Below are positions 1 through 19,593 of a stretch of DNA of 19,593 nt, piece after piece. The DNA is from Chloroflexota bacterium. Its GTDB lineage: Bacteria; Chloroflexota; Dehalococcoidia; JACQGW01. Below the pieces are notes generated by a model. It saw only the letters and a list, made by a program, of their open reading frames with translations, did no database searches and had not been told where the DNA came from. The stretch lies in NCBI GenBank assembly GCA_016199325.1, contig JACQGW010000199.1, positions 1 through 19,593 on the forward strand. The letters are read 5' to 3'. Within the stretch, counting starts at the first letter, position 1. The number at the start of each line of letters is the position of its first letter. The position numbers and the translations under genes were made by a program.

Positions 1-530
1 ACCGGGGTGTTCGTCGGCGGGACCGGCGTCGCGTCGGCTGGGGCCGCGGTTGGCGTCGGCGGCACCGGCGTTGGTTCGGGTCCACTAACGACGGGCGTCG
101 CCGTCGGTGGCACTGGCGTCGGTGGCACCGGCGTCGGCGGCACGGGCGTATTGGTCGGCGGCACCGGGGTGTCGGCCGGAACCGGCGTCCCGGTCGGCGG
201 CACCGGCGTGTTGGTTGGCGGCACTGGCGTGTCGGCCGGGACGGGCGTGTTGGTTGGCGGCACTGGAGTCGCCGTCGGCGGTACCGGGGTATCAGTTGGC
301 GCCGGAGTCGCCGTCGGCGGTACGGGCGTCTCGGTCGGCGGCACCGGGGTTGCCGTCGGTGGTACGGGCGTCTCGGTCGGTGGGATCGGGGTGTTCGTCG
401 GCGGCACCGGTGTGTCGGTTGGGACCGGCGTTGCCGTCGGCGGCACCGGGGTATCGGTTGGCACCGGCGTGTTCGTCGGCGGCGCCGGGGTCGCCGTCGG
501 CGCCGGCAACGGGAGCGGCTGCGCGGGCAC
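1..530. repeat. Tandem low-complexity coding repeat (Thr-Pro linker)
   Basis: Degenerate short units of the form GTCGGCGGCACCGG recur in mostly 21- and 27-base steps. On the minus strand they encode alternating TPVPPT, NTPVPPT and DTPVPT units, and they run off the left edge. The reading frame is kept throughout, so this is a coding repeat rather than a satellite. Copy number probably varies between strains. Confidence 0.85.
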
Positions 531-1280
531 GCTGAATGAATTGTCGCCCCACTTGGGCGGCGAGTTGTGGACGTCGGGCATGGCGATCGTCGCAGTGCCA
601 CAGCCGGCCAGCGGCGCCCGATCGAACTTGAACTCGTAGATGTCCGGGATGATCCAGTTCGCATAGGCGGACGCCAGCGTTGGGTACTGTGGGTCGAAAG
701 GCGGCGATTCCCAGGCATCCTGCGACGGCTTGCCGGCGTTGAGCGCGCCGTAGTTGTTCAGGTCCCAGACGAGGGAACTGGACGCCTCCAGCCCCTGGAT
801 GAAGGACGCGCTCGGCGCTTGCCCATCCGGTCCAGCAACACCGGCCGCCCAGCCACTGCCGGTCCAATAGAGATAGTCGAGCCAGAAGGTGGCTGTCTGG
901 CCGCCACAGGTGATGTCGATGGCAACGTGGTCGCTGTTTAGCAGGTGGCCGAAGGTGTGGTTGTTCCAGCCGGTCTTGTAGGTGTCGTGGTAGGTGCCGG
1001 GGTTGGGGCCGAAGACGTTTTCGTTCGGCTTGTTGACGAGCGCGACGTAGTAGGCGTTCTCGTCCGCGTAGGCGTAGAACGTGGCGTTGCCATCGTCGAA
1101 GATGGCCTGGTACTGCGGGTCGATGGCGCCGTCGATGACGGGCGGAGCGGCCAGCGGCGCCAGCGGCGCTGGCGGCCGTGCTCCCATCGGCGGTCGGCCG
1201 ATGAGCTGGAGCCCGAAGGCGAGAAAGCCGACGAGCGATACGATGACGACGAGGCTGATGAGGGCATTGCGCAAGGCCAT
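1..1280 (-). CDS. Secreted/anchored protein with CBM9-like domain and Thr-Pro repeat tail (3' end cut by window edge)
   Basis: The frame is open from the ATG at 1280 to the left edge (426 codons), so the C-terminus is missing. Residues 5-25 form a hydrophobic signal or anchor segment (ALISLVVIVSLVGFLAFG). Residues about 40-200 look like a type-9 carbohydrate-binding or DOMON-like beta domain: it opens with PPVIDGAID, then has aromatic strands such as TFYAYADENAYYVALV and HVAIDITCGG. From about residue 250 the chain is TPVPPTNTP/TPVPTDTP repeats, a linker style common in exported Chloroflexota proteins. GGAGAGA lies 5 bases before the ATG and supports this start. The likely role is extracellular binding of a glycan or another cell-surface ligand; the substrate is unknown. 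What follows the linker, perhaps a second domain or an anchor, is outside the window. Open frames on the opposite strand here are repeat shadows. Confidence 0.85.
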   Translation of the reverse strand, partial: MALRNALISLVVIVSLVGFLAFGLQLIGRPPMGARPPAPLAPLAAPPVIDGAIDPQYQAIFDDGNATFYAYADENAYYVALVNKPNENVFGPNPGTYHDTYKTGWNNHTFGHLLNSDHVAIDITCGGQTATFWLDYLYWTGSGWAAGVAGPDGQAPSASFIQGLEASSSLVWDLNNYGALNAGKPSQDAWESPPFDPQYPTLASAYANWIIPDIYEFKFDRAPLAGCGTATIAMPDVHNSPPKWGDNSFSVPAQPLPLPAPTATPAPPTNTPVPTDTPVPPTATPVPTDTPVPPTNTPIPPTETPVPPTATPVPPTETPVPPTATPAPTDTPVPPTATPVPPTNTPVPADTPVPPTNTPVPPTGTPVPADTPVPPTNTPVPPTPVPPTPVPPTATPVVSGPEPTPVPPTPTAAPADATPVPPTNTP

Positions 1281-5003: not shown

Positions 5004-5849
5004 CTATGCCTCATGCACGATGAGTCGGAAGAGACCGTCCAGATCCTCCTCCGAATAGAAGTGGATGATCAACCTGCCGCCCCGCCGGCCCCGCTTGAGC
5101 TCGACTTTCGTTCCGAGCGCAGACCGGAATTGCTCTTCGAGGGCGCGCGTTGTTGGGTCGGCGGCCTCGTCGGGTGGCGAGATCTCCTTGGGTGGGGGCG
5201 GAGCGAGGGACTGGCGGACGAGCTCCTCCGTCTGGCGAACCGACAGATCGCGCTCACGCACAACGGTCGCGAGGGCAGCCTGAGCGGCGGGGTCGGGCAA
5301 TCCGAGCAGGGCGCGTGCGTGGCCCTCGGTGATCTCGCCGGCGGCAAGGCTGGTCTTTACCGCGTCGGGCAGGCGGAGCAGGCGGAGCGCGTTGGCGACG
5401 CTGACCCGGTGGCGCCCAACACGCTGGGCGACTTGCTCCTGGGTGAGGCCGAACTCCTCGACGAGCTGCTGGTAGGCGGCTGCGGCTTCCAGGGGGTTGA
5501 GATCGGCGCGCTGGAGGTTCTCGACGAGAGCCAGCTCCAGCAGTTGCTGGGGTGTCGCCTCTTTGACGACGACGGGCACGGCGGCGAGCCCGGCGCGTGT
5601 CGCCGCTCGCCAGCGCCGTTCGCCCGCGATGATGGTGTAGCCGGCCCCTTCGGCCGCCGTCACGAGGATCGGCTGGAGGACGCCGTGGCGGCGGATGCTA
5701 TCGGCCAGCTCCTCGAGCGCGGCCGGGTCGTCGACCTGCCGCGGCTGGCGCGGGTTTGGCCGCAACTGGTCGACCGGCACCTCGCGGACCGCCGCTTCTG
5801 GGGTGGGAATGAGCGATTCGAGACCGCGTCCAAGCCCTCGGGGTTTCAT
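5004..5849 (-). CDS. parB: Chromosome-partitioning protein ParB
   Basis: This 281-aa ParB/Spo0J-type CTPase and DNA-binding protein loads at parS, spreads and works with ParA in chromosome segregation. The N-terminus KPRGLGRGLESLIP is typical of chromosomal ParB. The ParB/Srx fold holds GERRWRA (76-82) and ENLQRADLNPLE (110-121). A helix-turn-helix follows at about 135-155 (LTQEQVAQRVGRHRVSVAN). The C-terminal dimerisation region starts at about 238 (TRALEEQFRSALGTKVEL). The ATG at 5849 is chosen because GGAGG lies 7 bases upstream; the open frame extends 14 codons further without support. parA is upstream on the same strand but is separated by 295 bp holding a palindromic element, whereas parAB pairs are usually adjacent or overlapping. 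Confidence 0.97.
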   Translation of the reverse strand: MKPRGLGRGLESLIPTPEAAVREVPVDQLRPNPRQPRQVDDPAALEELADSIRRHGVLQPILVTAAEGAGYTIIAGERRWRAATRAGLAAVPVVVKEATPQQLLELALVENLQRADLNPLEAAAAYQQLVEEFGLTQEQVAQRVGRHRVSVANALRLLRLPDAVKTSLAAGEITEGHARALLGLPDPAAQAALATVVRERDLSVRQTEELVRQSLAPPPPKEISPPDEAADPTTRALEEQFRSALGTKVELKRGRRGGRLIIHFYSEEDLDGLFRLIVHEA

Positions 5850-5885
5850 GGTCGACCTCCTCCAGCAGCATCGTATGGGGTCGTG

Positions 5886-5913
5886 CGTCATCCGTCATCC
5901 GTCATCCGTCATT
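5886..5913. repeat. Four tandem CGTCATC heptamers
   Basis: CGTCATC occurs three times in direct succession (5886-5906), followed by CGTCATT (5907-5913). This lies 37 bp upstream of the parB start and 6 bp from the palindromic element. Similar heptamers recur in the opposite arm of that element (about 6073-6100). They may be replication-slippage products of the element, or binding repeats. Confidence 0.75.
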
Positions 5914-5919
5914 GGTAGG

Positions 5920-6148
5920 CTGGTGGCCTTCCACATTGATTCTGATGGATGCGGCTTGCCGATTTCATGCGTCATTCCGTCAGGTTTGGGCGGGCGCTGC
6001 CCATGAGAACGGCCGTGGTGGTCCACTGGTGGAATACCACAGTGATATTGATGGGCAGCTCCCGTCCAGAGCTGACGCAATGACGCGTGACGTATGACGC
6101 ATGAATCGGCAAGCCGCATCCATCAGAATCAGCGTGGCATGCCACTAG
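5920..6148. mobile_element. MITE-like 229-bp near-palindrome between parA and parB
   Basis: The two halves are reverse complements over almost the whole length. The core arms 5937-5975 and 6094-6131 match perfectly except for one extra T in the left arm. The outer ends match as CTGGTGGC against CTAGTGGC. The inner arms ending GCTGCCCAT face ATGGGCAGC, and the centre is near CCACTGGTGG. The right arm carries an extra set of CGTCAT heptamers (about 6076-6100). It has no coding capacity. The right end overlaps the parA stop codon (TAG, 6147-6145). Its form suggests a non-autonomous inverted-repeat element or a very large cruciform-forming repeat. No clear target-site duplication was found. Confidence 0.7.
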
Positions 6149-6918
6149 CGGTCTGCCCTCTTTGCGCTCCGCTCGACGAATTCGGCGGCGAGCGCCCGAT
6201 AGGCTGCTGCGGCTTTGGAGCCTGGATCGTATTCGATGATCGACTGCCCGTGGCTCGGCGCCTCGCCCAGACGCACGCTGCGCGGGATGATGGTTCGGAA
6301 GGTCTGCGGGAAGTGGCGCTGGACCTCCAGCGCCACCTGCTGGCTCAGGTTCAAGCGCGGGTCGAACATCGTCAGGACGAGGCCGCGGATCTGGAGCGTC
6401 GGGTTCGGTCCGTTCACGACACGGCGGAGGGTCTCGACGAGCTGGGCAAGCCCTTCGAGGGCGAGGTACTCGCACTGGACCGGAATGAGGACCGACGCCG
6501 CGGCGACGAGGGCGTTGATCGTCAGCAGCCCGAGGGACGGCGGACAGTCCATCAGGACGACGTCGTAGTGTGTGGCGATTGGGCCGAGCGTCCGCTTCAG
6601 GAGCCAGAGCCGTTCGGGCGCGCCGGCCAGCTCGACCTCAGCGCCGGCAAGTGCAACCGAGGACGGGATCAGGTCGAGGCCACGGCGGCCGGTAAGCACG
6701 ACAGCGTCGGCGGCCGGCATGGCGCCGAGGATGGCCTCATAGACGCCGCGCCCTTTCCCCTTTGCCTGACCGAGGGCGCTGGTCGCGTTGGCCTGGGGGT
6801 CCAGATCGACAAGGAGGACGCGCCGGTCGAGCTCGGCGAGAGCGGCGGCCAGGTTTACGGCGGTGGTCGTCTTGCCGACGCCGCCCTTCTGGTTTGCAAC
6901 GGCGACCTGCTCAGTCAC
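6145..6918 (-). CDS. parA: Chromosome-partitioning ATPase ParA (Soj)
   Basis: This 257-aa Walker-type ParA/Soj/MinD-family ATPase partners ParB in chromosome segregation. The deviant Walker A KGGVGKTTT is at 11-19, the A'-type motif VLLVDLDPQAN at 34-44 and Walker B VVLMDCPPS at 120-128. The mid-C-terminal VRLGEAPSHGQSI is typical of chromosomal Soj proteins. The start is GTG at 6918, with GGAGGAG about 10 bases upstream. An open frame extends far upstream, but it lies within the kinase gene in another frame and has no similarity to ParA. The start overlaps the stop of the PfkB gene by 8 bp (GTGACTGA), which implies translational coupling. The stop codon lies in the end of the palindromic element. 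Confidence 0.97.
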   Translation of the reverse strand: MTEQVAVANQKGGVGKTTTAVNLAAALAELDRRVLLVDLDPQANATSALGQAKGKGRGVYEAILGAMPAADAVVLTGRRGLDLIPSSVALAGAEVELAGAPERLWLLKRTLGPIATHYDVVLMDCPPSLGLLTINALVAAASVLIPVQCEYLALEGLAQLVETLRRVVNGPNPTLQIRGLVLTMFDPRLNLSQQVALEVQRHFPQTFRTIIPRSVRLGEAPSHGQSIIEYDPGSKAAAAYRALAAEFVERSAKRADR

Positions 6919-7777
6919 GCGTAGAGTGCTCCTCCGTGCCCCGGTTGAGGCGATCGAGGACCTGCCGGCGGGTCGGCAGCGCCTCCGGTCCGAATCCCTC
7001 GACCGAGCAACTGGCGGCAGCGCTGGCGAAGCGAGCGGCTGCGGGCAGGTCGGCGCCCTCCCCCAGCCGGACCAGGAGCGCCCCGGCGAAGACGTCGCCG
7101 GCGCCGGTCGGATCCAGCGCCTTGGCCGGGAAGGCGGGAATGGGAATGGTCTGACCGGCGGCAAAAAGGGTCGCACCGGCGGCCCCCTGCGTGAGCACGA
7201 GCGCCCGCGCCGCACGCACGGACTCGGCCAGGCGCTCGGTCTGCTGGCCAAGGTCTTCGTCGGACAGGACCACGGCGTCGGCTCGGCGCAAGACCGGATC
7301 GGGAATTGGCCAGGGCGCCGGCTGGAGCAGCCCGCCCTCACCGCGGCGGCGCAGCCAGCCCTGAACCGTCGCGACCACGATGGCGTCTGGGAAGGCGTCG
7401 GCGAGGCAGGGATCGACCTCGCCGGCGACCGGCCCCAGATGGACGAGTCGTGCCAAGCACCAGGCTGGCGGCAGGTCCGCAGGCCCAAGGGGCCCCGCCG
7501 TGGCGAGTCGCCACTGCCGGCGGCGCTGGCCTTCGTACTGGTGCAGGTGCGTCGTCGTCACGCCGTCGGCTCGACAATGGACCCGAACGGCCGTCCCGTG
7601 AAATGCCCGGCGGGCGAAGGAAGGGCCGTCGGCGGCCGTGACCACGGCCACGTCGAGGCCCAGCCGCTGAGCCGTCAGCGAGACGTAGAGCACGGAGCCG
7701 CCGGGGCGGTCGCTTCCATCCGGTCGGAGATCGCGCGTCAGGTGGCCGATGGAGAGCAGGGTGGGCGGTGGAGACAC
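6911..7777 (-). CDS. PfkB-family carbohydrate/nucleoside kinase
   Basis: This 288-aa ribokinase-fold sugar or nucleoside kinase has the C-terminal PfkB signature DPTGAGDVFAGALL at 222-235, with Asp228 as catalytic base and GAGD forming the anion hole. The N-terminal Gly-Gly motif is RPGGSVLYVSLTAQRLG (25-40). The ATP-site strand LTQGAAGATLF is at 195-205. The substrate cannot be told from the sequence. The start is GTG at 7777, 10 bases after the jag stop with a weak ribosome site, so coupling to jag is likely. The gene overlaps parA by 8 bp at its end. A sugar kinase inside the rpmH-to-parB block is unusual, since rsmG or mnmE/mnmG often occupy this place. Confidence 0.9.
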   Translation of the reverse strand: MSPPPTLLSIGHLTRDLRPDGSDRPGGSVLYVSLTAQRLGLDVAVVTAADGPSFARRAFHGTAVRVHCRADGVTTTHLHQYEGQRRRQWRLATAGPLGPADLPPAWCLARLVHLGPVAGEVDPCLADAFPDAIVVATVQGWLRRRGEGGLLQPAPWPIPDPVLRRADAVVLSDEDLGQQTERLAESVRAARALVLTQGAAGATLFAAGQTIPIPAFPAKALDPTGAGDVFAGALLVRLGEGADLPAAARFASAAASCSVEGFGPEALPTRRQVLDRLNRGTEEHSTRD

Positions 7778-7787
7778 CGCCGCGCGC

Positions 7788-8483
7788 TCACGCTCGGCGC
7801 GGCGAGATCACTACCTTGCGGTGGTCCTCCTCGCCGATGCTGTGGGTCTCGACCTCCGAACTGTCTTGAAGCGTGATATGGATGATCCGGCGCTCGGCCG
7901 GCGGCATCGCCTCCAGGGTGATGGGCTGACGGGTCTGGCGAACTCGTTCGGCCATTCGGATCGCGAGGCTGCGGAGCGAAGCGTCGCGACGGCGGCGATA
8001 GCCCTCGACGTCGACGGTGAGATGGACCCGGCGTCCGAGACGCCGGGTGGCGATCAGGTTGACGAGGAACTGGAGGGCCGCCAGCGTCTCGCCGCGGCGT
8101 CCGATCAAGGCGCCGAGATCCTCGCCGACGAGGTCGAGCGTCGGACCGGCTTCGCCGTCGACGACTTCCACGTCGGCGTCGAGCTCCATTTGGTCGAGGA
8201 TCTCCTGAAGGACTTGACTCGCCAGGGTGATCGCTTCCGGGCCGGCGGTAACAGGCTCGGCTTCGTCCTCGCCGGTGGGTGGCTCGGCGGGCGAGATGGG
8301 GGCCGCGGCCTGGGGGCGGCGCGTGAGCCGAACACGGGCGTCCTCGGCGCGGAAGCCGAGCAGGCCAGTGCGGCCTTCGGCGAGGACGACCACTTCGACC
8401 TGGTCGCGCGTCGCTCCGAGTTTGGCCAGACCCTGGGCGATAGCGTCTTCGACTGTGCGGGCGCTGATCTCGACGTGCTCCAT
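7788..8483 (-). CDS. jag: Jag/KhpB RNA-binding protein (Jag_N-KH-R3H)
   Basis: This 231-aa RNA-binding protein (SpoIIIJ-associated Jag, also called KhpB) is typically encoded just after yidC and linked to cell-envelope growth. A Jag_N domain at 1-54 (MEHVEISARTVEDAIAQGL, then GRTGLLGF) is followed by an acidic Pro/Glu linker (55-80). A KH domain at about 85-158 carries GALIGRRGETLAALQ. An R3H domain at about 165-229 carries the R198-x3-H202 motif in AERRIIH. The ATG at 8483 is 2 bases after the yidC stop and has GGAGGAAG upstream. The open frame runs further upstream only inside yidC in another frame. It belongs to the same operon as yidC and the kinase gene. Confidence 0.96.
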   Translation of the reverse strand: MEHVEISARTVEDAIAQGLAKLGATRDQVEVVVLAEGRTGLLGFRAEDARVRLTRRPQAAAPISPAEPPTGEDEAEPVTAGPEAITLASQVLQEILDQMELDADVEVVDGEAGPTLDLVGEDLGALIGRRGETLAALQFLVNLIATRRLGRRVHLTVDVEGYRRRRDASLRSLAIRMAERVRQTRQPITLEAMPPAERRIIHITLQDSSEVETHSIGEEDHRKVVISPRRA

Positions 8484-8485
8484 CA

Positions 8486-9334
8486 CTACTTCTTCCTCCG
8501 GGCACTTCGCGGCCGGGCAGGACCGGCTGCCGGTTGCTCGCGGGTGGGGGGCTGGGGCGCGGGCGCCGGGGCTTCGCGCTCCCGAGTGGGAGCGGTCCGG
8601 GGCCCTATGATGCCGGGGATGTTGAGCGTGCCCCAGCCCGTGACCTTGTATTGGATGGCGATGCTGATCAGATTGGAGGCGACCCAGTAGATCGCCAGGC
8701 CGCTGGCGAATTGCAGGGTGAAGAAGCCAAACATCAGCGGCATCATCACCTGCATCATCTGGTTCATCTGCATTTGCTGCGGATCGGTACTGGGCATCGT
8801 CATCATCTTTTGCTGGAGCCACATGCTGCCGCCGACGAGAACGGGCAGGATATAGAGCTGGTCCGGCGCGGCCAGATTGAGCCAGAGAAAGTGGTTGTGG
8901 AGCGGGAGCGCCCGCTGGACGACGTCCAGACCCGGATAGAGGTGCTTCGACAGTTCGAGGAACCCCTCCGGGCGGTCGGAGAGCGCCATGAAGATCGCCT
9001 GATAGAGACCGATCCAGATGGGAAACTGGAGGAACGTGGGCACCGCGCAGCCGAGCGGGTTGACGCCGTGCTCGCGGTAGAGGGCCATGGTCTCCTGGGA
9101 GAGGCGCTCACGGTCCTTGCCGTGCTTCTTTTGGAGCTCCTGGATCTTCGGCTGAAGCGTCGACATGGCCTTGGAGGCATGGAGCTGTTTGAGGGTGAGC
9201 GGAAGCATCAGGAGGCGCACGATGACAGTGAAGGCGACAATCGTGATGCCGAAGCTGCCGGCAAAGAGCGCGCTGAGGGCGATGAGCCCGTTCAGCATGG
9301 GGTCGAAGAAGAGTTGATTCCAGAGGTCGATCAA
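8486..9334 (-). CDS. yidC: Membrane protein insertase YidC/Oxa1
   Basis: This 282-aa insertase places membrane proteins in the cytoplasmic membrane. It has the short Gram-positive/Oxa1 layout without the large periplasmic domain of proteobacterial YidC. The conserved groove arginine is Arg40 in VAFTVIVRLLMLPLTLKQ. It is followed by the coiled hairpin MSTLQPKIQELQKKHGKD and the helix NPLGCAVPTFLQFPIWIGLY. The last ~40 residues are a Pro/Arg-rich basic cytoplasmic tail (ARPRSARRKK). The start is TTG at 9334 with GAGGAT 6 bases upstream; no in-frame ATG exists nearby until residue 13. jag follows after 2 bases. The PQQ lipoprotein gene ends 30 bp upstream, between yidC and yidD. Confidence 0.96.
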   Translation of the reverse strand: MIDLWNQLFFDPMLNGLIALSALFAGSFGITIVAFTVIVRLLMLPLTLKQLHASKAMSTLQPKIQELQKKHGKDRERLSQETMALYREHGVNPLGCAVPTFLQFPIWIGLYQAIFMALSDRPEGFLELSKHLYPGLDVVQRALPLHNHFLWLNLAAPDQLYILPVLVGGSMWLQQKMMTMPSTDPQQMQMNQMMQVMMPLMFGFFTLQFASGLAIYWVASNLISIAIQYKVTGWGTLNIPGIIGPRTAPTREREAPAPAPQPPTREQPAAGPARPRSARRKK

Positions 9335-9364
9335 GCGCGTATCCTCATGATGTCGCGATTTCTG

Positions 9365-10465
9365 TTACTTCTGCCCCGGCAGGCGAGCTTCCCAGAGCTT
9401 CCGGCCCGTCGCATCGAAGGCGTATACGACGTCGTGGGCGGTCGTGACGTACGCCTTGCCGTCGGCGACGGCGATGGGCGCGAGCACCGGGGAGTCGACG
9501 TTTTGCTCCCATCGCTTCTCGCCGGATGCGGCATCGAGGCCGTAGACCTTCCCTGCGTTCTCGCCCGCCTGGGAGCCGACGACGATGATGCCTTCGGGTG
9601 CCAGGAGAGCGGGCGCGGAGCGGATCGGGCCGCTGGCGAGGAACGGTGCTCGTTGGGGCTGGAACGTCCGGACGTCGAGCGCGTAGAGCTGGTGGTCGAG
9701 CGAGGCGGCATAGACGGTGCCGCCGACGATGAGCGGCTCGGCCCAGAACCAGTTCCGAGCGGTGAACGAGCCGACCTGCCGGCCCGTCGCCGCATCCACC
9801 CGGTAGAGCATCTGGCCGACGCCACCGACGTAGATGAGTCCGCCGGCGAGGACCGGTGAAGTCAGCAGAGGAGCCTTGGCCTCGAACCGCCATTGCTCCC
9901 GCCCGGTGTCCGGGTCGACGGCGTACAGGTGATGATCCATCGAGGCGACGTAGAGAGCGCCCTCAGTGACAGTGGGCGTCGCCCAGATGGGTCCTGCGGT
10001 GACGAGCTCCCAGAGCTTCCGACCGTCAGCAGGGGCGAGGGCGCGCAGCTTGCCGTCGTTGCCGCTGACGTAGACGGCGGTGGCGCCGACGGCGGGCGTG
10101 GCGACAATCGGCGTCCCGATGGACTGCTCCCAGGTCTTCGCGCCGGTGGCGGCATCGAGTCGGTATACCTTGCCGTTGTGGGAGCCGGCGTAGACGGCAT
10201 CGGCCGTGGCGGCGGGCCGGCCGTAGATGGCCGCGAGGCCGGGCGCGTCCTGCTCGCCGGCCGCCGAGAACTCCCAGCGGACGTTGCCGGCGTCGTCGAT
10301 CGCGATCACCTTGCCGGTATAGGTGCCGACGTACACGCCGCTTCGGGCGGGCGTCGAGCCGGCCCAGTTCCAGCCAGTGGTCGTCGGCGCCGGCACGCAG
10401 GCGGCAAGAAGGAGGAGCGCGGCGACGAGCAACGCCGGCAGGCGCATGAAGTGCTGAACGATCAT
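9365..10465 (-). CDS. PQQ-like eight-bladed beta-propeller lipoprotein (BamB-like)
   Basis: This 366-aa predicted lipoprotein has a signal peptide MRLPALLVAALLLLAAC (from residue 7) with lipobox LAAC and lipidated Cys23. Eight PQQ/WD-like blades follow, each with a variant of xVYxLDAATGxxxWE: for example GKVYRLDAATGAKTWEQ, HHLYAVDPDTGREQWRF and GKVYGLDAASGEKRWEQ. The fold is that of BamB and other PQQ-like propellers. A scaffold or protein-contact role outside the membrane is likelier than PQQ enzymology, but no function is shown. The ATG at 10465 has GGAGG about 11 bases upstream; the ATG at 10447 would give a tidier signal peptide but has no ribosome site. Its place between yidD and yidC is unusual and hints at a role in envelope assembly. 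Confidence 0.88.
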   Translation of the reverse strand: MIVQHFMRLPALLVAALLLLAACVPAPTTTGWNWAGSTPARSGVYVGTYTGKVIAIDDAGNVRWEFSAAGEQDAPGLAAIYGRPAATADAVYAGSHNGKVYRLDAATGAKTWEQSIGTPIVATPAVGATAVYVSGNDGKLRALAPADGRKLWELVTAGPIWATPTVTEGALYVASMDHHLYAVDPDTGREQWRFEAKAPLLTSPVLAGGLIYVGGVGQMLYRVDAATGRQVGSFTARNWFWAEPLIVGGTVYAASLDHQLYALDVRTFQPQRAPFLASGPIRSAPALLAPEGIIVVGSQAGENAGKVYGLDAASGEKRWEQNVDSPVLAPIAVADGKAYVTTAHDVVYAFDATGRKLWEARLPGQK

Positions 10466-10511
10466 CGGTTCGCTGTGCCTCCGTGGCGCCGGCCGCCTGG
10501 CCCTGCGCCTC

Positions 10512-10527
10512 TGTAAAACGTGAAACA
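10512..10527. promoter_or_regulatory. Candidate degenerate parS site
   Basis: TGTAAAACGTGAAACA matches the bacterial parS consensus TGTTTCACGTGAAACA at 13 of 16 positions, with the right ten bases (ACGTGAAACA) perfect. It is an AT-richer island in a GC-rich spacer between yidD and the PQQ gene, in the origin-proximal block and about 3.6 kb from parA. The left half-site is poor, so this may be a weak site, a decayed site or chance. Confidence 0.4.
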
Positions 10528-10531
10528 GTGA

Positions 10532-10747
10532 TCAAGGAACCGGATCGTAGCCCCCAGCGTTGAACGGGTTGCAGCGGACGATCCGTTTCACCGCCAGCCA
10601 GCCCCCTCGCCGCACCCCGTAGCGCTCTATCGCCTCATAGCTGTAATGGGAGCAGGACGGCTCAAACCGGCAGCTCGGCGGAGAAACCCGGGAAATCGTA
10701 TTCTGGTAAAGCCGAATAGCTCCAAGGGCGACCCGCCTTGACAGCAT
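10532..10747 (-). CDS. yidD: Membrane protein insertion efficiency factor YidD
   Basis: This is a 71-aa small cytoplasmic, membrane-associated protein of the YidD family, almost always encoded between rnpA and yidC. The family core is clear: [20 protein letters not shown], the [12 protein letters not shown] stretch, then [17 protein letters not shown] at the C-terminus. ATG at 10747 is preferred, with GAGG 6 bases upstream overlapping the rnpA stop. A TTG at 10759 would add four residues and overlap rnpA. Family length is usually 70-85 residues, so it looks complete. The role, assisting YidC-dependent insertion, is family knowledge. Confidence 0.96.
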
Positions 10748-10755
10748 CGGGCACC

Positions 10756-11112
10756 TCAAGCCTCCCGACCCTCGGCCGCCCGCTCGGCGAGCAGCCGGGC
10801 ACGGCGCATGAGGGATCGCACGGCGTCGGCAAGCTCGTCGAATCGAGCTTCTGCCGCAGCCGGCCGGGCGATCACGACGACGTCAAAACCGGACCGGAGT
10901 CGAACCTGTCGAGCGATCTCCCGCAACCGCCGGCGCACTCGATTGCGCACGACGGCCGAGCCGACGCGCCGACCGACCGAGAATCCGACGTGGCTGTCGG
11001 GCAGATCGTTTGAACGAGCGCGCACGGCGAGCAGCGGCTGTGACCAGGAGCGGCCGTGCTGATACACAGCGGCGAAGTCGGCGCTGCGTCTCAGCCGGCG
11101 CTCCCGATCCAT
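10756..11112 (-). CDS. rnpA: Ribonuclease P protein component
   Basis: This 118-aa basic protein is the subunit of RNase P that helps the catalytic RNA trim tRNA 5' ends. The RNR signature [10 protein letters not shown] lies at 56-65. The N-terminal [19 protein letters not shown] and the [13 protein letters not shown] strand are typical. The ATG at 11112 lies 9 bases after the rpmH stop, with only a weak ribosome site, so coupling to rpmH is likely. Its stop overlaps the ribosome site of yidD. Length is normal for the family. Confidence 0.96.
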
Positions 11113-11121
11113 CGACAGGTC

Positions 11122-11259
11122 TCACACGGACAGGCGCCGCCGACCCCGCCGGCGCCGCGCCCGAAGAACGTCCCGCCCCCCGCGAGTGAACATCCGGGCC
11201 CGAAAGCCATGTAGCCGCTTGCGAGGGATTCGCTTCGGCTGATACGTTCGCTTGGGCAC
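11122..11259 (-). CDS. rpmH: Large ribosomal subunit protein bL34
   Basis: This 45-aa highly basic ribosomal protein has the bL34 pattern [19 protein letters not shown] followed by [19 protein letters not shown] and the terminal GRRRLSV. The start is GTG at 11259 (the sequence then reads PKRTYQP), with GGAAGGAT 6 bases upstream. It is the first gene of the rpmH-rnpA-yidD block and is preceded by a near-consensus promoter about 120 bp upstream. The open frame extends further upstream without coding support. Confidence 0.97.
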
Positions 11260-11601
11260 GCTCGATCCTTCCCGGCCTGTTTGTGTGCTTGTCTCAACCC
11301 AATTCCCGGCCGGCCAGCGCCGGGCAGGACTCACGACAAACCGGAGCACCAGCGATACTTCCTGGACTCCGTGAGGAATTATAGCCGACGGCTCGCGAGG
11401 GTGTCAACGCGCTCGGTCGCTCCGGGGCGCGCACATGAGCGGTGCCGAGCGACAACGAACCGCCAAGACGCCAAGACCGCCAAGGGAGACGACAAGAACA
11501 AAGGAACAGGTGCCGGAACACGCACAGAGAGGCAGGCTGCGCCAATATTCCAACAGCAGGCGGGCGCCAATCGTTCCAGCGCTGTCGCGGCGCGGTGCAA
11601 C
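11260..11601. other. 342-bp intergenic region upstream of rpmH
   Basis: It holds the rpmH promoter and leader (11260-11407). Beyond that is a stretch rich in CGCCAAGACGCCAAGACCGCC (about 11461-11482), a short tandem motif typical of dispersed intergenic repeats. No dnaA and no cluster of TTATCCACA-type DnaA boxes was seen by eye. The plus-strand open frame through this part has no recognisable protein similarity. Confidence 0.6.
11378..11407 (-). promoter_or_regulatory. Consensus sigma-70-type promoter of the rpmH operon
   Basis: On the minus strand TTGACA (11407-11402) and TATAAT (11383-11378) are both perfect consensus hexamers, separated by 18 bases. Transcription from about 11371 would give a leader of about 110 bases before the rpmH GTG. 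A strong housekeeping promoter is expected for this ribosomal protein/RNase P operon. Confidence 0.88.
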
Positions 11602-13274: not shown

Positions 13275-16200
13275 CTACGCTCGCTCCCACCGGACAGCGA
13301 TGCCGAGCTGCTCAAACCCCTCGACGATGCGCCGATCAAGCACGTCCTCGGGAATGCCGGCGGCGCTCTGCACGTCTATCGTCACGACGAGCTCGGCCGC
13401 GGCATCCTGTTCTTGCAATACCTTGAAGAGATAGGGTTGCAGGTTGCTGGTCTTGCCGATCTTCAGACGGTCGAGCTGGATCCGGAGCTTGGCCAGCCGC
13501 TTGGGCGGATGTGGGATGGTTGGCGCCTTTCCCCCGGCAGTGCCGGGCGACCTGTCGGTTCCGACGGGCGGCTTTGCCGTCTCGGTCCGCTCGACCGCGC
13601 CGGTAGAGGCGTCGTGCTTGCCCGCCGCCGGAAGCGGCAGCTCGCCCTGGATGAGCTCCAGCAGCTCGCCCCGGACCAGTGACGCCGAGCCGTCAAACAG
13701 CCCTACCAACGTGTCGAGCTCGTCCGCCTTCTCGACGAGGCGCTGGTACGTCATGGTGGCGTTGTCGCCGATGGCCACGGTCCAGAGGCCGTTTCTGACC
13801 CCTTCCGCCAGGCACGCCCGCAGCGTTGCTTCCCGATTGGGGAGGATGGGGAGAAACGTCCACTGCGGGAAACGGCGGCTCGTCTCGCCAAGATCCAGGG
13901 GGCTCGTCTCGTCCTTCCAGAGGCGGGGCAACAGCTTGACGTTGAAGAAGCTCGCTCCGATTTGCCGCATAACCTTCGGGTTGGTGTAATCCTGGCCTGC
14001 CAGCCGATCGACGGCGCGCCTGGCAATACGCTCCGCCTGCGTCGCCGGCACCGGCAGCGGGACGACGCTGAGGCCACGCTCGTCCGGATAGAAGACCCAG
14101 CGATAGGCCGTCGTGACGCTCGTGCGGAGGCTCTCCTTCTTGTCTTTGAACCGGCTCTTGAGCTCCTTCAGCTCCAGGTCGCTCACCTGGATCGACCGCT
14201 TCTCGACGTCGGCTATGACGGACTCATACGCCAGGACTTCGCGCATGGCCTCCTCGGCCTTCGCCCAGAGCTCTCGGTCCGGCGCGACGAGGACCAGCGC
14301 ATTCCGCCACTGGCGGAGGCCGCCGCCCGCCTTTTCCCAGAGCTGGTCGATGGGCTGCCGGACGGCGAGCGCCCCGCCGTTCTCCTCGGAAACGGCGTAC
14401 CTGGCGTCGAGAACCGCGATCGTCGGCTCGGATCGGTCGGGGATGGCGCCCTCGGCCGCCGCCCACGCGATCGACTGGAACCCGTCGGCGCTCCCGATGG
14501 CTTCGCCGAGCGCGCCTTGCAGTCGCCCGGCGACCGTCGGCGCCGGCTGATCCTTCGCCCGTTGCGCGATGACCGAGTAGACGTTGGCGCGCGTCTCGAA
14601 ACGCCGCAGCTCGCCCTCCCGGTGAACGTACCAGAGCGACTGCTCCAGTGAGCCGAGGATCTCGGAGACGTACTCCGGCCCGACGTTGGGCGCCACGGTC
14701 CCCAGGAAGAGGTCGGACGGACGGGCGCCGGCGCGGGTCGCGCCGCCAAACGAGTGCATCAGCAGCGTCGTCGCGATGCCACGGCCGACGCGGTGGCGCT
14801 CGTACTCACCGCCACGGCGCTGATCGAGCGCGTCGGCGTGGGCGTCGCCGCCGACGATGTCCGCGGCGACGACGCTGTCGTAGCCGCTGCCGGCCGCGCT
14901 GACGATCTTCGTGCGGATGCGCTCGCGCCCGAGGTTCACGTGGGCCGACTGGATGGTGTAGACCTCGCGCCGGTTCACCCACTGGTCGGCGACGACACTC
15001 GCCAGCAACTGGAGGACGGAGCGCGTCCGCGGGAAATCGCCCGCCGTCGACCACTTCTTGTACAGGACGTCGACCAGCTCGGCGTGGAGCGGATAGGCGG
15101 CACGCTGGTGCTCCAGGTAGTCCTGGGAGAAGACGGCAGGATCGTACACGGCGCGGGTCCGCTCGTACGCCGCGCGGTAGAGCAGCGCCACCTGCCGGCC
15201 GACGCCCGCGTCCGTCTTCTTGAAGAGGCGTTTGCTCATCAGCGTGTAGATCTCGTCGTCGTCCACCGGCGTCCGCTTCGAGACGACGCGGTCGGCGCGC
15301 GCCCGCAGCTCGTCGGCGATGCCCAGCTCGCTCTGGAGCTGCGCCGGGTCCAGCCCGCCGAACTCCGTCCGGCTCTTCGGCAGTGAGATCAGGACGGAGA
15401 CCCCCGGGATGTTCCCGGCCTGCTGGAGCAGCTCCTGGACGAACTGCACCGTCTGCCGGTAGAGGTTCTGCGAGGACCGGGTGCTGGAGAACTTGAGCTT
15501 GACGAGGTAGCTCACGATCTCGTCGATCAAGATCAGACAGGGCGCAACCGCCAGCAGGACCTCGCGGTAGAGCGCATTGCCGGGCGCCTCTCGCCGGCTG
15601 TCGACGGGCGCAATCAGCCGATCGTAGAGCCCGGGATCCGCCTGAAACGCCAGCTCACCCCAGAGCGTCCAGACCTGGGCGCCGTTCTGCTTCGGCAGCG
15701 GCTCGGTCCCGAGCTCCTGGCCGTCGAAGGCGAGGACCCTGGAATTGGGCGGCAGCGCCACGTCGCCCAGCGCCTCGCGCACTCCGGGGACGGCGAGCGA
15801 GCGCTGCGGGCTCTTGACCAGGTGGTAGAGCGTGAGCAGCGCGTGCGTCTTGCCGCCTCCGAACGGCGTGTGGAGCTCGGTAACGGACGGCCCTTCCCCG
15901 CCCCGAAGTCGGCTGGCGACGTCGCGGATCGTCAGTCGCAGGTTCTCGGTGAAGTACGTGTGGGAGAAGAAGATCGCCGGGTCCAGGTACTCCGGGCGGG
16001 CGGCGCCGGCGTGAACACCGCCGAGCGTCGCGGCGAAGAGCGACTCGTCGATGGCGGTCGGGTCCTTGAAGGCGTCGTGCGGCTCGCAGACCTGCCACCA
16101 GTAGGGTATCTCGCCGGCCGGCGGCGGGTGCGCCGCCGCAGCCGCGGGCGCCGGCGGCGGCGCACCAGCCGCCGGCGGTGCCGCGGGCCCGATGCCGAGC

Positions 16201-16664
16201 ACGTCCTTCCGGATCCGCTCGACGGCCTCCGCCTCCGGCAGCCTGGCGGCGGCCAGGACCTGCACCATTGCGTAGAGGGCGTGGGCCACCTCGTCTGCCA
16301 GCATGTCGCCGGTGCGCGGGTGCGCCCAGTCCGTCCGGGCCGTCGCCACCTGCGCCAGCCACGAGCGTGTCTTATCGTAGTCGCCGAAGATGCCGTGCAG
16401 GAGGCTGTCGAAATGCCTGGGGACCAGCCGGGCGAAGTGGGTCGCGTCCAGGTGGTCCATCCAATCCTTGGTCGGATCCCTCTTCACGTTCGCCCGGACG
16501 TTCTGCGCCTGGCCCGCCGTCAAGTGGTCCAGGACGCCGGCCTCCCACCACTTATCGCCCTTGCCGCCGTAGGCGGCGACCAGGCGCGCCTTCAGCAGGC
16601 GGCGCATGGCATCCGTGTAGAGCTTGAGGCCCTCGCCGAGCGCGGCGTAATTGCTCTCAGCCAT
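13275..16664 (-). CDS. DUF499 (COG1483) AAA+-type ATPase with N-terminal Swt1-like HEPN domain
   Basis: This 1129-aa protein is a predicted ATPase of a methylase-linked, defence-type module. Residues 1-150 form an all-helical Swt1-like HEPN domain with the candidate catalytic motif R110-x4-H115 in ARTDWAHP, the pattern of HEPN RNases. A Pro/Ala linker (160-184) leads to the DUF499 ATPase. Walker A is TPFGGGKTHA (266-275; Lys272, Thr273). Walker B is CLILIDE (376-382; Asp381, Glu382). A sensor-1-like strand VSVLISLPKS follows at about 422-431. The C-terminal ~100 residues after a Pro/Lys-rich stretch are a further DUF499-associated domain. The ATG at 16664 has GAGGAGGAG upstream and overlaps the methylase stop by 8 bp (ATGGCTGA), so the two are translationally coupled. 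ATP-dependent sensing linked to RNA cleavage is an inference; HEPN activity is not shown. Confidence 0.92.
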   Translation of the reverse strand: MAESNYAALGEGLKLYTDAMRRLLKARLVAAYGGKGDKWWEAGVLDHLTAGQAQNVRANVKRDPTKDWMDHLDATHFARLVPRHFDSLLHGIFGDYDKTRSWLAQVATARTDWAHPRTGDMLADEVAHALYAMVQVLAAARLPEAEAVERIRKDVLGIGPAAPPAAGAPPPAPAAAAAHPPPAGEIPYWWQVCEPHDAFKDPTAIDESLFAATLGGVHAGAARPEYLDPAIFFSHTYFTENLRLTIRDVASRLRGGEGPSVTELHTPFGGGKTHALLTLYHLVKSPQRSLAVPGVREALGDVALPPNSRVLAFDGQELGTEPLPKQNGAQVWTLWGELAFQADPGLYDRLIAPVDSRREAPGNALYREVLLAVAPCLILIDEIVSYLVKLKFSSTRSSQNLYRQTVQFVQELLQQAGNIPGVSVLISLPKSRTEFGGLDPAQLQSELGIADELRARADRVVSKRTPVDDDEIYTLMSKRLFKKTDAGVGRQVALLYRAAYERTRAVYDPAVFSQDYLEHQRAAYPLHAELVDVLYKKWSTAGDFPRTRSVLQLLASVVADQWVNRREVYTIQSAHVNLGRERIRTKIVSAAGSGYDSVVAADIVGGDAHADALDQRRGGEYERHRVGRGIATTLLMHSFGGATRAGARPSDLFLGTVAPNVGPEYVSEILGSLEQSLWYVHREGELRRFETRANVYSVIAQRAKDQPAPTVAGRLQGALGEAIGSADGFQSIAWAAAEGAIPDRSEPTIAVLDARYAVSEENGGALAVRQPIDQLWEKAGGGLRQWRNALVLVAPDRELWAKAEEAMREVLAYESVIADVEKRSIQVSDLELKELKSRFKDKKESLRTSVTTAYRWVFYPDERGLSVVPLPVPATQAERIARRAVDRLAGQDYTNPKVMRQIGASFFNVKLLPRLWKDETSPLDLGETSRRFPQWTFLPILPNREATLRACLAEGVRNGLWTVAIGDNATMTYQRLVEKADELDTLVGLFDGSASLVRGELLELIQGELPLPAAGKHDASTGAVERTETAKPPVGTDRSPGTAGGKAPTIPHPPKRLAKLRIQLDRLKIGKTSNLQPYLFKVLQEQDAAAELVVTIDVQSAAGIPEDVLDRRIVEGFEQLGIAVRWERA

Positions 16665-19593
16665 TGCTCATCTCCTCCTCGAAGCCCGGCAGCGGCGCGC
16701 CGGCCCGCGCCGGTTTCACCTGGGGCGGCCTGGTCTGGCGCGGCGGACCGTTCCTGGGCGCCGCGATACCCATGACGTTGCTGCCCAGCAGGCCGTTGAT
16801 CAGGCGGCGGTCCTCGTCGCCGTCCGGCAGGCACTCGGCCACGGCCTGGCCGAGCGTCCGCAGCGCCGTCCAGCGCGTCTCACCCAGCGCCGTCCGGAAC
16901 GCCGCCAGATCGTCGGGCCGATTCTGGCTCCAGAGCAGCGCCGCCCACTGGAGCTGGTCGATCAGCGGTGTCGGCCGCGCCGGCGAATCCTCGCCAAAGG
17001 TCTCGTCCTGCCGGCCGCGCTCCCGGACGGTCCGGAGCTTGACGAGCTTCTTGCTCCCCTCGCGGACCTCGGCGGCGATGGAGCCCGGCCGGACGACCTC
17101 GCGGTAGTCGGCCCCGGTCGCCAGACAGAGGGCGATGGCCTCGCCGGCCTCCAGCGGCGCCCGCGAATAGCTCCAGACCCAGGTGACGTACTGCCGGGTG
17201 GCCGGGTCGACGACGCCGAGGTCCGCGCCGCGGAGCACCTGCTCCAGCGCGACGCGGGTCGACTCCTTCCGAACGAGGTCGAGGAAGTCGCGGACGGTGA
17301 CGACGGAGCCGTCGGGCCGGAGGACGCGGCGGTGGCGGCCGAAGACGGAGAGGGCCGGGCCGATGGCGCTGATGAAGAAGTCGGCGCCGCGGACACCCTT
17401 GGACCAGAAGTAGAGGAGCCGCTCCTCGACGACCGGCCGCATCTCGGCCATGACGTCGCCGATGAACGCCTCGCCGGCATCCTCCTCACGCGGGCGGCAG
17501 GCCATCCAGACGGAGGTCTTCAGGCGAGCCTGCCCAAGCCCTGCCACCTTGTTCTCCAGTTCAGTGTCGAGCGGCCACGAAGCGTCGGGAATCAGCTCTG
17601 CGCGCAGAAGCCCTTCAATCAGGGTAGCCCAGGCGTCCGGGTCGGTGTGGGCAAACACGACACCGACCAGGCCATGCGGCTCCAGCGATCTGCCCATGGC
17701 GTCGAATGCGTGGGCCATCCCGTCAACGTACTGCTGACGGGCAGCGGCACGTCGCCCCGCTTGGCCCGTTTCGTATTGAGCATAGGGGCTCATTACGATC
17801 TGCGGCTTCTTGGGTGTGAGCGGCAAGCCCAATTCCGCAGGATACAAGAAGCCGAGAGACCGCTTCAGCCAAACGTAGAAGAAGTCCGAAAGGTCTGCAT
17901 AGTTGATGGCGTCGTAGTAGGGCGGATCCGTGACGAATACTTGCTGCTTGTGCGCTACAGACCGTGCATCTCGGAGGCTGATGGTCGCTTTCGCACAAAC
18001 CGAGAAGTTCTCCAACTCAAGGTACAGGAGAATCCAACTGAGGCAACTGGTAAATCCTCCGGATGCATCAGAAAACGGGACACCTTCCGCGTAATCCCAG
18101 ACCATTGGTAATGCCTGTCTGGCAAAGGTGTTGGTGATAGCTTCCATCTTCGAGGATGGATCCCATCGGCAGAGTGTGCTAGAGCGATCTGCCAAGCGGT
18201 CAACGGCCAGCCCCAAGTACGTGGCTACTGCCTTGGCATACCCTTTGTCTACACCCGCGTTCAACATCTCATCATAGGCCGCGACCACGAGGGACACGAA
18301 TGACGTTAGCGTGACAAGTTGACGAGGAGTGAATAACTTGCCAAAGGTATCGTATCCCGATGCCGTTATCACTCCACCAGTCAGATGCCTGGGCATCGGT
18401 TCGTCCGGTACTATCGGCAAATCACTATGGAGCGTTTGGATCTCGACCAGTCTCTGCACTGCGTTCAGGCAGACGACCGAATCTCTCTGCGTATCCGGGC
18501 GATAGCGCTTGCCCCCGCTCCCCGACGCTTCAAGCGCGGCCGCGGTCAAGGCAGCGCCGATACCGCCGTGATTGCCGCATTCCCGCACGTACTCCGCCTG
18601 CACTACCTGTCGACATAGCAAGCAAACCGTATCGCCCCGCGACGTGGTCGCCTCAGCCGGATCGCCGGTGACGTCTTCGCCTTCCACCACGTCGAAGTCG
18701 ACGCGCCTGTTCTCACGGTCGACCACCGGCTTCAGCGCGACCTTCTTGTTCTCCTTGCGGGCGAGCCAGTACTGCCGGATAAGTGGCATCTGGGCGCCAC
18801 AGTTCGGACAGGGGACGGTCCGGCTCCAGAGGTAGGCGACCGGGATCGAGCCGTCGGGGTCGGGCGGGTAGTACGGCGCCAGCTCGGCGCGGGCCCGCTC
18901 CAGCATCCAGTTGCCCCAGTAGCGGACGTCGGCCGCCAGCGGGTTCCGCTCGTAGGCGGCGACGGCGCCGCCCTCGCCAAAGCTGGATTGCCGTTGTCGG
19001 CCCATCGCGCGGATGTAGCTTGGGACGGCGCCATTCACGCCAGCGATGGCTTGCCTGGGGGGCACGGGGGTTCCGGCAGGCGAGACGCCTGCGCTCCCGG
19101 AAGGGGCGCCTGCGCTCCCCGGTGGTTGTATCCGTTCGCCGTGCCGCAACTGCTCGACCTGCTCGGCCAGCGGCCGCCCGTAGGTCTGCGGGTACTCCAG
19201 CGTGCACTTCAGGATCAGGACGGCGACAGGGTTGAGGTCGCTCGCCTCGACCTCGCAGCCGAGTCGGAGCGCCTCAAGGGGGATCGCGCCGCCGCCGGCG
19301 AAGGGATCGAGGAGCCGCGGCGGCTTGCCACCGTTGTCGGCCAGGATGCGGCGCCGCGCCCGCGCCAGCAGCTCCGCGCCCGTCAGGCCGCTGCCGCCCT
19401 GCTCCCGCGGCCGGACGACCCGGTCGGGCCGGCGGATGGCGTCCCAACTGGCGAGGTCCGCCACCTCTTTGAGGAGATCCTCGCGCTCGCGGTCGGTCGC
19501 GGGATCGTCGACCAGCGATGCGTAGATGAAGGCGCGGCAGGCGGCGAGCGGACGGCGCGCCCACCAGATGTGGAGCGTCGAGATGTGGCCGTG
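16657..19593 (-). CDS. DUF1156 (COG1743) Zn-ribbon adenine-specific DNA methylase, 5' end outside window
   Basis: At least 978 residues are in the window; the frame is still open at the right edge and the true start is missing. The first visible residues GHISTLHIWWARRPLAACRA are the DUF1156 signature. SAM-binding motif I is LLDPFAGGGAIPLEALRLG (DNA about 19288-19308). A Zn-ribbon has CPNC and, about 60 residues later, CLLC. Catalytic motif IV is VTDPPYYDAINY (DPPY at 17917-17928). Motif I before DPPY suits an N6-adenine methylase. COG1743 and COG1483 genes are known neighbours in predicted defence islands. Two oddities: a dispersed repeat is translated in frame at about 19060-19125, and the central ~1.1 kb is clearly lower in GC than both ends. 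The target sequence is unknown. Confidence 0.92.
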   Translation of the reverse strand, partial: HGHISTLHIWWARRPLAACRAFIYASLVDDPATDREREDLLKEVADLASWDAIRRPDRVVRPREQGGSGLTGAELLARARRRILADNGGKPPRLLDPFAGGGAIPLEALRLGCEVEASDLNPVAVLILKCTLEYPQTYGRPLAEQVEQLRHGERIQPPGSAGAPSGSAGVSPAGTPVPPRQAIAGVNGAVPSYIRAMGRQRQSSFGEGGAVAAYERNPLAADVRYWGNWMLERARAELAPYYPPDPDGSIPVAYLWSRTVPCPNCGAQMPLIRQYWLARKENKKVALKPVVDRENRRVDFDVVEGEDVTGDPAEATTSRGDTVCLLCRQVVQAEYVRECGNHGGIGAALTAAALEASGSGGKRYRPDTQRDSVVCLNAVQRLVEIQTLHSDLPIVPDEPMPRHLTGGVITASGYDTFGKLFTPRQLVTLTSFVSLVVAAYDEMLNAGVDKGYAKAVATYLGLAVDRLADRSSTLCRWDPSSKMEAITNTFARQALPMVWDYAEGVPFSDASGGFTSCLSWILLYLELENFSVCAKATISLRDARSVAHKQQVFVTDPPYYDAINYADLSDFFYVWLKRSLGFLYPAELGLPLTPKKPQIVMSPYAQYETGQAGRRAAARQQYVDGMAHAFDAMGRSLEPHGLVGVVFAHTDPDAWATLIEGLLRAELIPDASWPLDTELENKVAGLGQARLKTSVWMACRPREEDAGEAFIGDVMAEMRPVVEERLLYFWSKGVRGADFFISAIGPALSVFGRHRRVLRPDGSVVTVRDFLDLVRKESTRVALEQVLRGADLGVVDPATRQYVTWVWSYSRAPLEAGEAIALCLATGADYREVVRPGSIAAEVREGSKKLVKLRTVRERGRQDETFGEDSPARPTPLIDQLQWAALLWSQNRPDDLAAFRTALGETRWTALRTLGQAVAECLPDGDEDRRLINGLLGSNVMGIAAPRNGPPRQTRPPQVKPARAGAPLPGFEEEMSNG
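19061..19125. repeat. Dispersed GCAGGCG-palindrome repeat inside the methylase gene
   Basis: GCAGGCG-AGA-CGCCTGC (19076-19092) is a perfect 7-bp inverted repeat. CGCCTGCGCTCCC occurs twice (19086-19098 and 19107-19119). On the minus strand it encodes GSAGAPSGSAGVSPAGTP, a translation typical of this class of intergenic repeat, between the motif I region and the Zn-ribbon. The frame is kept. Confidence 0.7.

Follow-up and report, generated by a model that had tools for sequence, protein, structure and literature searches.

A methylase and HEPN-ATPase gene pair of the Hma / Type-1 BREX-related family at the end of a Chloroflexota contig

Main finding

The DNA analysed here, called the window, is the whole 19,593-nucleotide (nt) stretch of contig JACQGW010000199.1 from a Chloroflexota bacterium. 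According to the list of open reading frames (ORFs), its minus strand carries two genes that overlap by 8 nt and encode a DUF1156 DNA methylase and a DUF499 ATPase with an N-terminal HEPN domain. The pair is most of an Hma / Type-1 BREX-related anti-phage operon, with a predicted RNA-cutting HEPN on the ATPase. We consider it highly probable that the two genes are the hmaB and hmaC of this restriction-like system, that hmaA lay upstream, and that the defence has two layers, with HEPN as the fallback. A preliminary description of this DNA had presented the pair as a candidate defence module linking modification to an RNase. It is not a new module but belongs to a published system of three genes, described both with and without HEPN (PMC3710099, PMC8565338, PMC12839542); the pair corresponds to HmaB-HmaC, and the third gene is out of view.

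The fusion of a Swt1-type HEPN to DUF499, in restriction-modification (R-M) operons with a SNF2-DUF3883 helicase, is reported in passages of Anantharaman 2013 (PMC3710099). The name Hma, for helicase, methylase and ATPase, was given by Payne 2021, where the passages on the system count 1638 instances in 26 phyla (PMC8565338), and the survey of Rakesh and Krishnan 2026 describes the Type-1 BREX-related class and lists 1370 taxa with HEPN (PMC12839542). Passages of Bell 2020 (PMC7641849), PMC13326643 and PMC12255303 were also used.

The gene pair

16657..19593, minus strand: hmaB-type DUF1156 adenine-type DNA methylase, 978 residues visible, N-terminus off the window edge; PADLOC HmaB, 9.3e-126
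13275..16664, minus strand: hmaC-type HEPN-DUF499 AAA+ ATPase, 1129 residues; PADLOC HmaC, 1.5e-111

These PADLOC matches, the best for each protein, bear out the earlier assignment of the pair to a defence family. Pfam recognised DUF1156 in the methylase (8.2e-16) and DUF499 in the ATPase (4.2e-26), and the anti-phage DUF499 and DUF1156 families of NCBIfam were also matched, both with scores far below the equivalog cut-offs. ORFs, Pfam and motifs thus confirm what had been read from the letters, an overlapping pair composed of an ATPase and of a methylase with DPPY and a Zn-ribbon. The contig end, at 19593, falls inside the methylase gene, and the record holds no sequence further right.

Conservation was measured on 120 listed proteins for each gene, the window's own plus 119 homologues. 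These are the best 120 of 190 found for the ATPase and the best 120 of 7998 found for the methylase; alignment A1 comprised 40 of the 120 listed and alignment A2 42 sequences. Because listed proteins were selected by words from the first 500 residues, HEPN-bearing proteins are favoured among them.

A helicase accompanies the pair in relatives

Neighbourhoods were obtained by a contig scan, in which the best 80 of 336 relatives were kept (loci L001 and following), and genes were called by tblastn (E 1e-8) with the window's two proteins and the helicases of two relatives as queries. The best six on long contigs, L001 to L006, are Chloroflexota, and their best segments are 51-58% identical; at L007 one segment reaches 66% identity, but just 6 kb of sequence is available. 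Where the sequence before the ATPase was 1 kb or longer, a methylase was present in 50 of 53 relatives, and where it was 3 kb or longer, in 36 of 37; among the 53, none was seen at L007, L035 and L046. The two genes are therefore not found apart in most relatives, and the linkage proposed for them stands.

Twenty-nine relatives have 7.5 kb or more of sequence before the ATPase, and in every one of them a Snf2-type helicase, the methylase and the ATPase lie on one strand. Their order is helicase-methylase-ATPase in 26 of these, and ATPase-helicase-methylase in the remaining three (L019, L026, L029). The distance between helicase and methylase is below 400 bp in 16 of the 29 and 0.6-3.3 kb in the other 13; two other ORFs separate the two genes in L004, and four in L005. 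For the six helicases of L001 to L006, the best PADLOC match was HmaA (2e-213 or better), and all six bear near their end NOV_C (PF13020), which we take to be the later name of DUF3883. The helicase is reportedly the subject of an experimental paper, Liu 2024. Since 29 of 29 relatives carry one, a helicase is predicted to the right of position 19593, adjacent or a few kb off, in keeping with the earlier guess that such a partner lies beyond the right edge. These neighbourhoods make it probable that hmaA, encoding a Snf2 helicase that ends in a NOV_C nuclease domain, was located upstream of the methylase, off the contig.

The other partners that had been suggested, a PLD nuclease and DUF3780, found no support in the proteins scanned. 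DUF3780 and an HKD/PLD nuclease on the helicase are marks of Type-2 systems, and PglZ/iSTAND those of Type-3 BREX-related ones, while the six closest testable relatives have a NOV_C helicase. Neither PglZ nor DUF3780 was found in ten flanking proteins of L001 to L006, which are part of their flanking ORFs, nor in ten further genes of the window, whose upstream side is off the contig; their absence from the scanned flanks fits Type-1. No HKD/PLD nuclease was present among the scanned proteins of the window and of L001 to L006, where the helicases bear NOV_C.

As to the surroundings of these operons, six of the ten neighbours chosen in close relatives matched PADLOC defence models, including a Gabija-like pair (L002) and QatA (L004). 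RES-domain proteins were seen directly upstream of the helicase in L002 (2401-3524) and L003 (2876-3562), that of L002 being accompanied by a weakly matched Xre/MbcA-like partner; these neighbours are possible toxin-antitoxin genes.

The ATPase and its HEPN domain

16200..16664, minus strand: N-terminal HEPN domain of the Swt1/Abi2 type, residues 1-155 (Pfam and model)
16320..16337, minus strand: R110-x4-H115, predicted RNase active-site motif, in 119 of 120 listed proteins
15846..15869, minus strand: P-loop TPFGGGKT with K272, in 120 of 120
15519..15536, minus strand: Walker B LILIDE, residues 377-382, with D381/E382 in 120 of 120
13281..13499, minus strand: C-terminal alpha/beta domain (predicted strands 1056-1068, 1091-1105 and 1123-1128, helices 1077-1086 and 1106-1119)

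Both Walker motifs are intact, as first described. The P-loop lacks the glycine that opens the textbook Walker A, but its form is the one conserved in the family. When the full-length model of the ATPase was compared with 988 aligned chains, the top two were both BREX BrxC, and Orc1/Cdc6 came next; a sequence search of solved structures with the ATPase gave no match. The C-terminal domain, as modelled, is consistent with the RRM/ferredoxin-like end described for DUF499 in PMC12839542.

A helical HEPN fold had been proposed for the N-terminal domain, and the model agrees with it. It was predicted with a mean local distance difference test score (pLDDT) of 94, and its four best matches among 850 aligned chains were Swt1, AbiF, Csm6 and HEPN-MNT, although Foldseek alone returned nothing significant for it. 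Pfam HEPN_Swt1 matched residues 12-138 with 6.2e-6 and 26.9 bits, just under the cut-off of 27.5; in precomputed Pfam annotation, the domain is marked on the window ATPase and, counted by eye, on 109 of the 120 listed proteins. We conclude from the model that the N-terminal domain has the HEPN fold.

R110 and H115 are conserved among the listed ATPases, the single exception, P0100, being a protein that begins downstream of both. The gap from R to H is 4 residues in 100 listed ATPases and 5 in 19. The HEPN domain averages 0.65 identity to the commonest residue and the ATPase core 0.81, and the only fully invariant HEPN positions, besides three columns of a sparsely filled insert, are R110, H115 and D120; a handful of others exceed 97% conservation. 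From these motifs HEPN is predicted to be an RNA-cutting effector. It could be argued that the domain has ceased to cut RNA and now serves the ATPase as a dimerisation or RNA-binding module, since eukaryotic Swt1, the best structural match, is described with an inactive HEPN in the relevant passages of PMC3710099. We judge this improbable: in a domain that changes fast, 119 of the 120 listed proteins retain the two predicted catalytic residues, and the same passages class the bacterial DUF499-fused family as active.

HEPN is an optional part of DUF499 ATPases

The spread of HEPN was followed on a quick ATPase tree of 79 rows, made of the window and 78 of the 80 loci (L007 and L008 were left out, their matching ORF having no P-loop pattern). 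The label HEPN-like was given to a long N-terminal extension with an R-x4/5-H motif. L002 and L003, whose ORF starts lay too far upstream, were labelled by reading the sequences; this raised the number of labelled rows from 14 to 16 and reduced the changes needed on the tree from 6 to 5. With these labels, 16 of the 79 rows have the extension, including all seven of the window's clade, and at least 5 changes are needed on the tree (2 of them forced by well-supported branches), versus 14.9 in shuffles.

Eight proteins were put to Pfam. HEPN_Swt1 was found in five, L001, L005 and L006 of the Chloroflexota clade, and L010 and L019 of Thermaceae, and not in L030, L035 and L052. A different N-terminal domain, with RNRAAH, was observed on the DUF499 ATPase of L030, L035, L041, L052 and L063 (Anaerolineae, Bipolaricaulota). 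N-terminal pieces from five loci with such extensions gave a single weak Pfam match, for L063 (E 0.0054). The Anaerolineae and Bipolaricaulota extensions thus have weak or no Pfam match, yet R and H are retained in the alignment. This domain is perhaps another kind of HEPN, joined independently.

These counts bear on the role of HEPN. The preliminary description had made it the main effector, the ATPase sensing unmodified DNA and directly freeing the RNase, so that DNA cleavage would be secondary. The retention of R110 and H115 in the listed ATPases and the extension in every row of the window's clade, once L002 and L003 were relabelled, speak for such a role. Nevertheless, every one of the 29 relatives whose upstream sequence is long enough has a helicase, while a HEPN-like extension is present in just 16 of 79 tree rows, and a main effector should not be optional. 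This explanation is therefore unlikely, and it departs from the published model, in which HEPN is the last-resort effector behind a DNA-cutting helicase-nuclease (PMC12839542). A constant helicase and an optional HEPN favour HEPN as a second layer.

The methylase

19288..19308, minus strand: motif DPFAGGG for binding S-adenosylmethionine, residues 96-102 of the truncated protein (D, F and GGG in 120 of 120 listed proteins, P in 118, A in 119)
18613..18810, minus strand: Zn-ribbon, CPNC (262-265) and CLLC (324-327), four cysteines in 120 of 120
17917..17928, minus strand: catalytic DPPY, residues 556-559, in 120 of 120

About 30 residues of the N-terminus are cut off, as judged from the median of 30 in homologues. 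DPPY presumably points to an amino-type methylase. A sequence search of solved structures gave a single weak match (E 0.017).

The methylase has an in-frame insertion of 26 residues, 154-179 (window 19057-19134, minus strand), at positions that are filled in at most 2 of the 120 listed proteins. Its DNA is GC-rich and repeated, with GGGAGCGCAGGCG present twice and followed by a small palindrome. An exact match to its 22-base core was found in two viral contigs, and a 17-base part of this core was absent from the other 116 loci. The insertion adjoins a stretch missing from about 95 of the 120 listed proteins, and resembles a short repeat element that a loop can accommodate. One might see in this insertion, and in the presence of two genes out of three, the sign of a decayed remnant that no longer works. 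This seems very improbable to us: both frames are open across their full visible length, every examined motif is intact, the place of the insertion borders a stretch that most homologues lack, and the third gene is not seen because the contig ends there.

In three of the 119 listed methylase homologues (P0175, P0200 and P0210), DUF1156 is fused to a NADAR domain at the N-terminus (PF08719, E about 4e-25 to 6e-25), and the records suggest that P0175 and P0200 lie on the same contigs as the HEPN-DUF499 proteins P0057 and P0062. Since its N-terminus is off the contig, the window methylase may carry a NADAR fusion too. The main text of PMC12839542 makes no mention of NADAR. Variants of this architecture occur in related operons, where the ATPase can have another type of N-terminal domain with R-x4-H, or the methylase the ADP-ribose-related NADAR.

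Chromosomal setting and other features of the window

5004-11260, minus strand: rpmH-rnpA-yidD-PQQ-repeat protein-yidC-jag-PfkB kinase-parA-parB (rpmH, rnpA and yidD recognised by eye in translation)
5919-6149, between parB and parA: imperfect inverted repeats, 46-nt arms (89%) around a hairpin with 62-nt arms (76%), no Rfam match
1640-1722: inverted repeat, its 31-nt arms showing 97% complementarity; resembles a small interspersed element
3-1280, minus strand: 426-residue frame open at the window edge, its later part a Thr-Pro-Val-rich repeat array, perhaps the linker of a secreted protein

The genes from rpmH to parB follow an order common around the origin of bacterial chromosomes, where dnaA frequently lies beyond rpmH; here the defence genes take that place. 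This order favours a chromosomal location. The window showed no DnaA-box-like or parS-like pattern and no clear origin signal in its GC skew; the genes scanned did not include dnaA. At the gathering threshold, Rfam matched nothing in the window. The sole tRNA-like hit of ARAGORN (10885-10975) lies inside the rnpA reading frame and was taken as false. Phage records gave no match to the ATPase. Among plasmid records 135 had a match, all below 60% identity, with the best-ranked in Thermus, and viral contigs gave 36 relatives with at most 31% identity in the best segment.

Discussion

The analysis shows which genes are present, their motifs, predicted folds and family matches, and that three genes keep company in relatives; from this we infer the following scheme. 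The methylase would mark the host's own DNA, and the BrxC/Orc-like ATPase would load on DNA and scan it together with the helicase, the presumed third partner, whose nuclease would cut unmarked invading DNA. HEPN on the ATPase would be a second, RNA-cutting effector, held in check as long as the first layer works unhindered; once released, it would stop the cell. More tentatively, and we rate this as doubtful, HEPN may be gated directly by the origin-recognition-like ATPase, the RNase being switched on by the nucleotide state of a BrxC/Orc-type scanner or by its loading on DNA. If so, one protein would couple DNA surveillance to RNA destruction.

The window adds to a widespread, little-tested defence family a HEPN-bearing example, closest to the Chloroflexota ones. 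The strict conservation of R110 and H115 in a dispensable domain predicts two layers of defence, DNA cutting and an RNA-cutting fallback, which point mutants could separate.

Comparison with known systems

BREX BrxC, the best structural match of the whole ATPase, differs in its setting, as it sits in a six-gene BREX with PglX and PglZ (PMC12839542), whereas no PglZ was found among the scanned neighbours. AbiF and Swt1 HEPN are the best structural matches of the N-terminal domain, but share only 7-9% identity with it. Moreover, AbiD/F are predicted, in passages of PMC12165695, to act with a non-coding RNA, while the window has no Rfam match. With Hma (PMC8565338), the likeness lies in the best PADLOC matches, HmaB and HmaC in the window and HmaA for the helicases of L001 to L006; the difference is that the passages on Hma in that paper leave a HEPN fusion unmentioned and call HmaB a 5-methylcytosine methylase. 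Type-1 BREX-related systems (PMC12839542) share with the window an N6-type methylase of the DUF1156 family that has a Zn ribbon and DPPY, and a DUF499 ATPase with an N-terminal HEPN. A Snf2 helicase bearing NOV_C is common to them and the six closest testable relatives, whose ten scanned flanking proteins included neither PglZ nor DUF3780. The window differs from them in the unique insertion of its methylase, and its own helicase is off the contig. Finally, the HEPN-DUF499 group of Anantharaman 2013 (the Ava_2192 group), as portrayed in passages of PMC3710099, showed no difference from the window pair; it has the same fusion, in the same company of R-M genes, with the SNF2-DUF3883 helicase that is predicted for the window.
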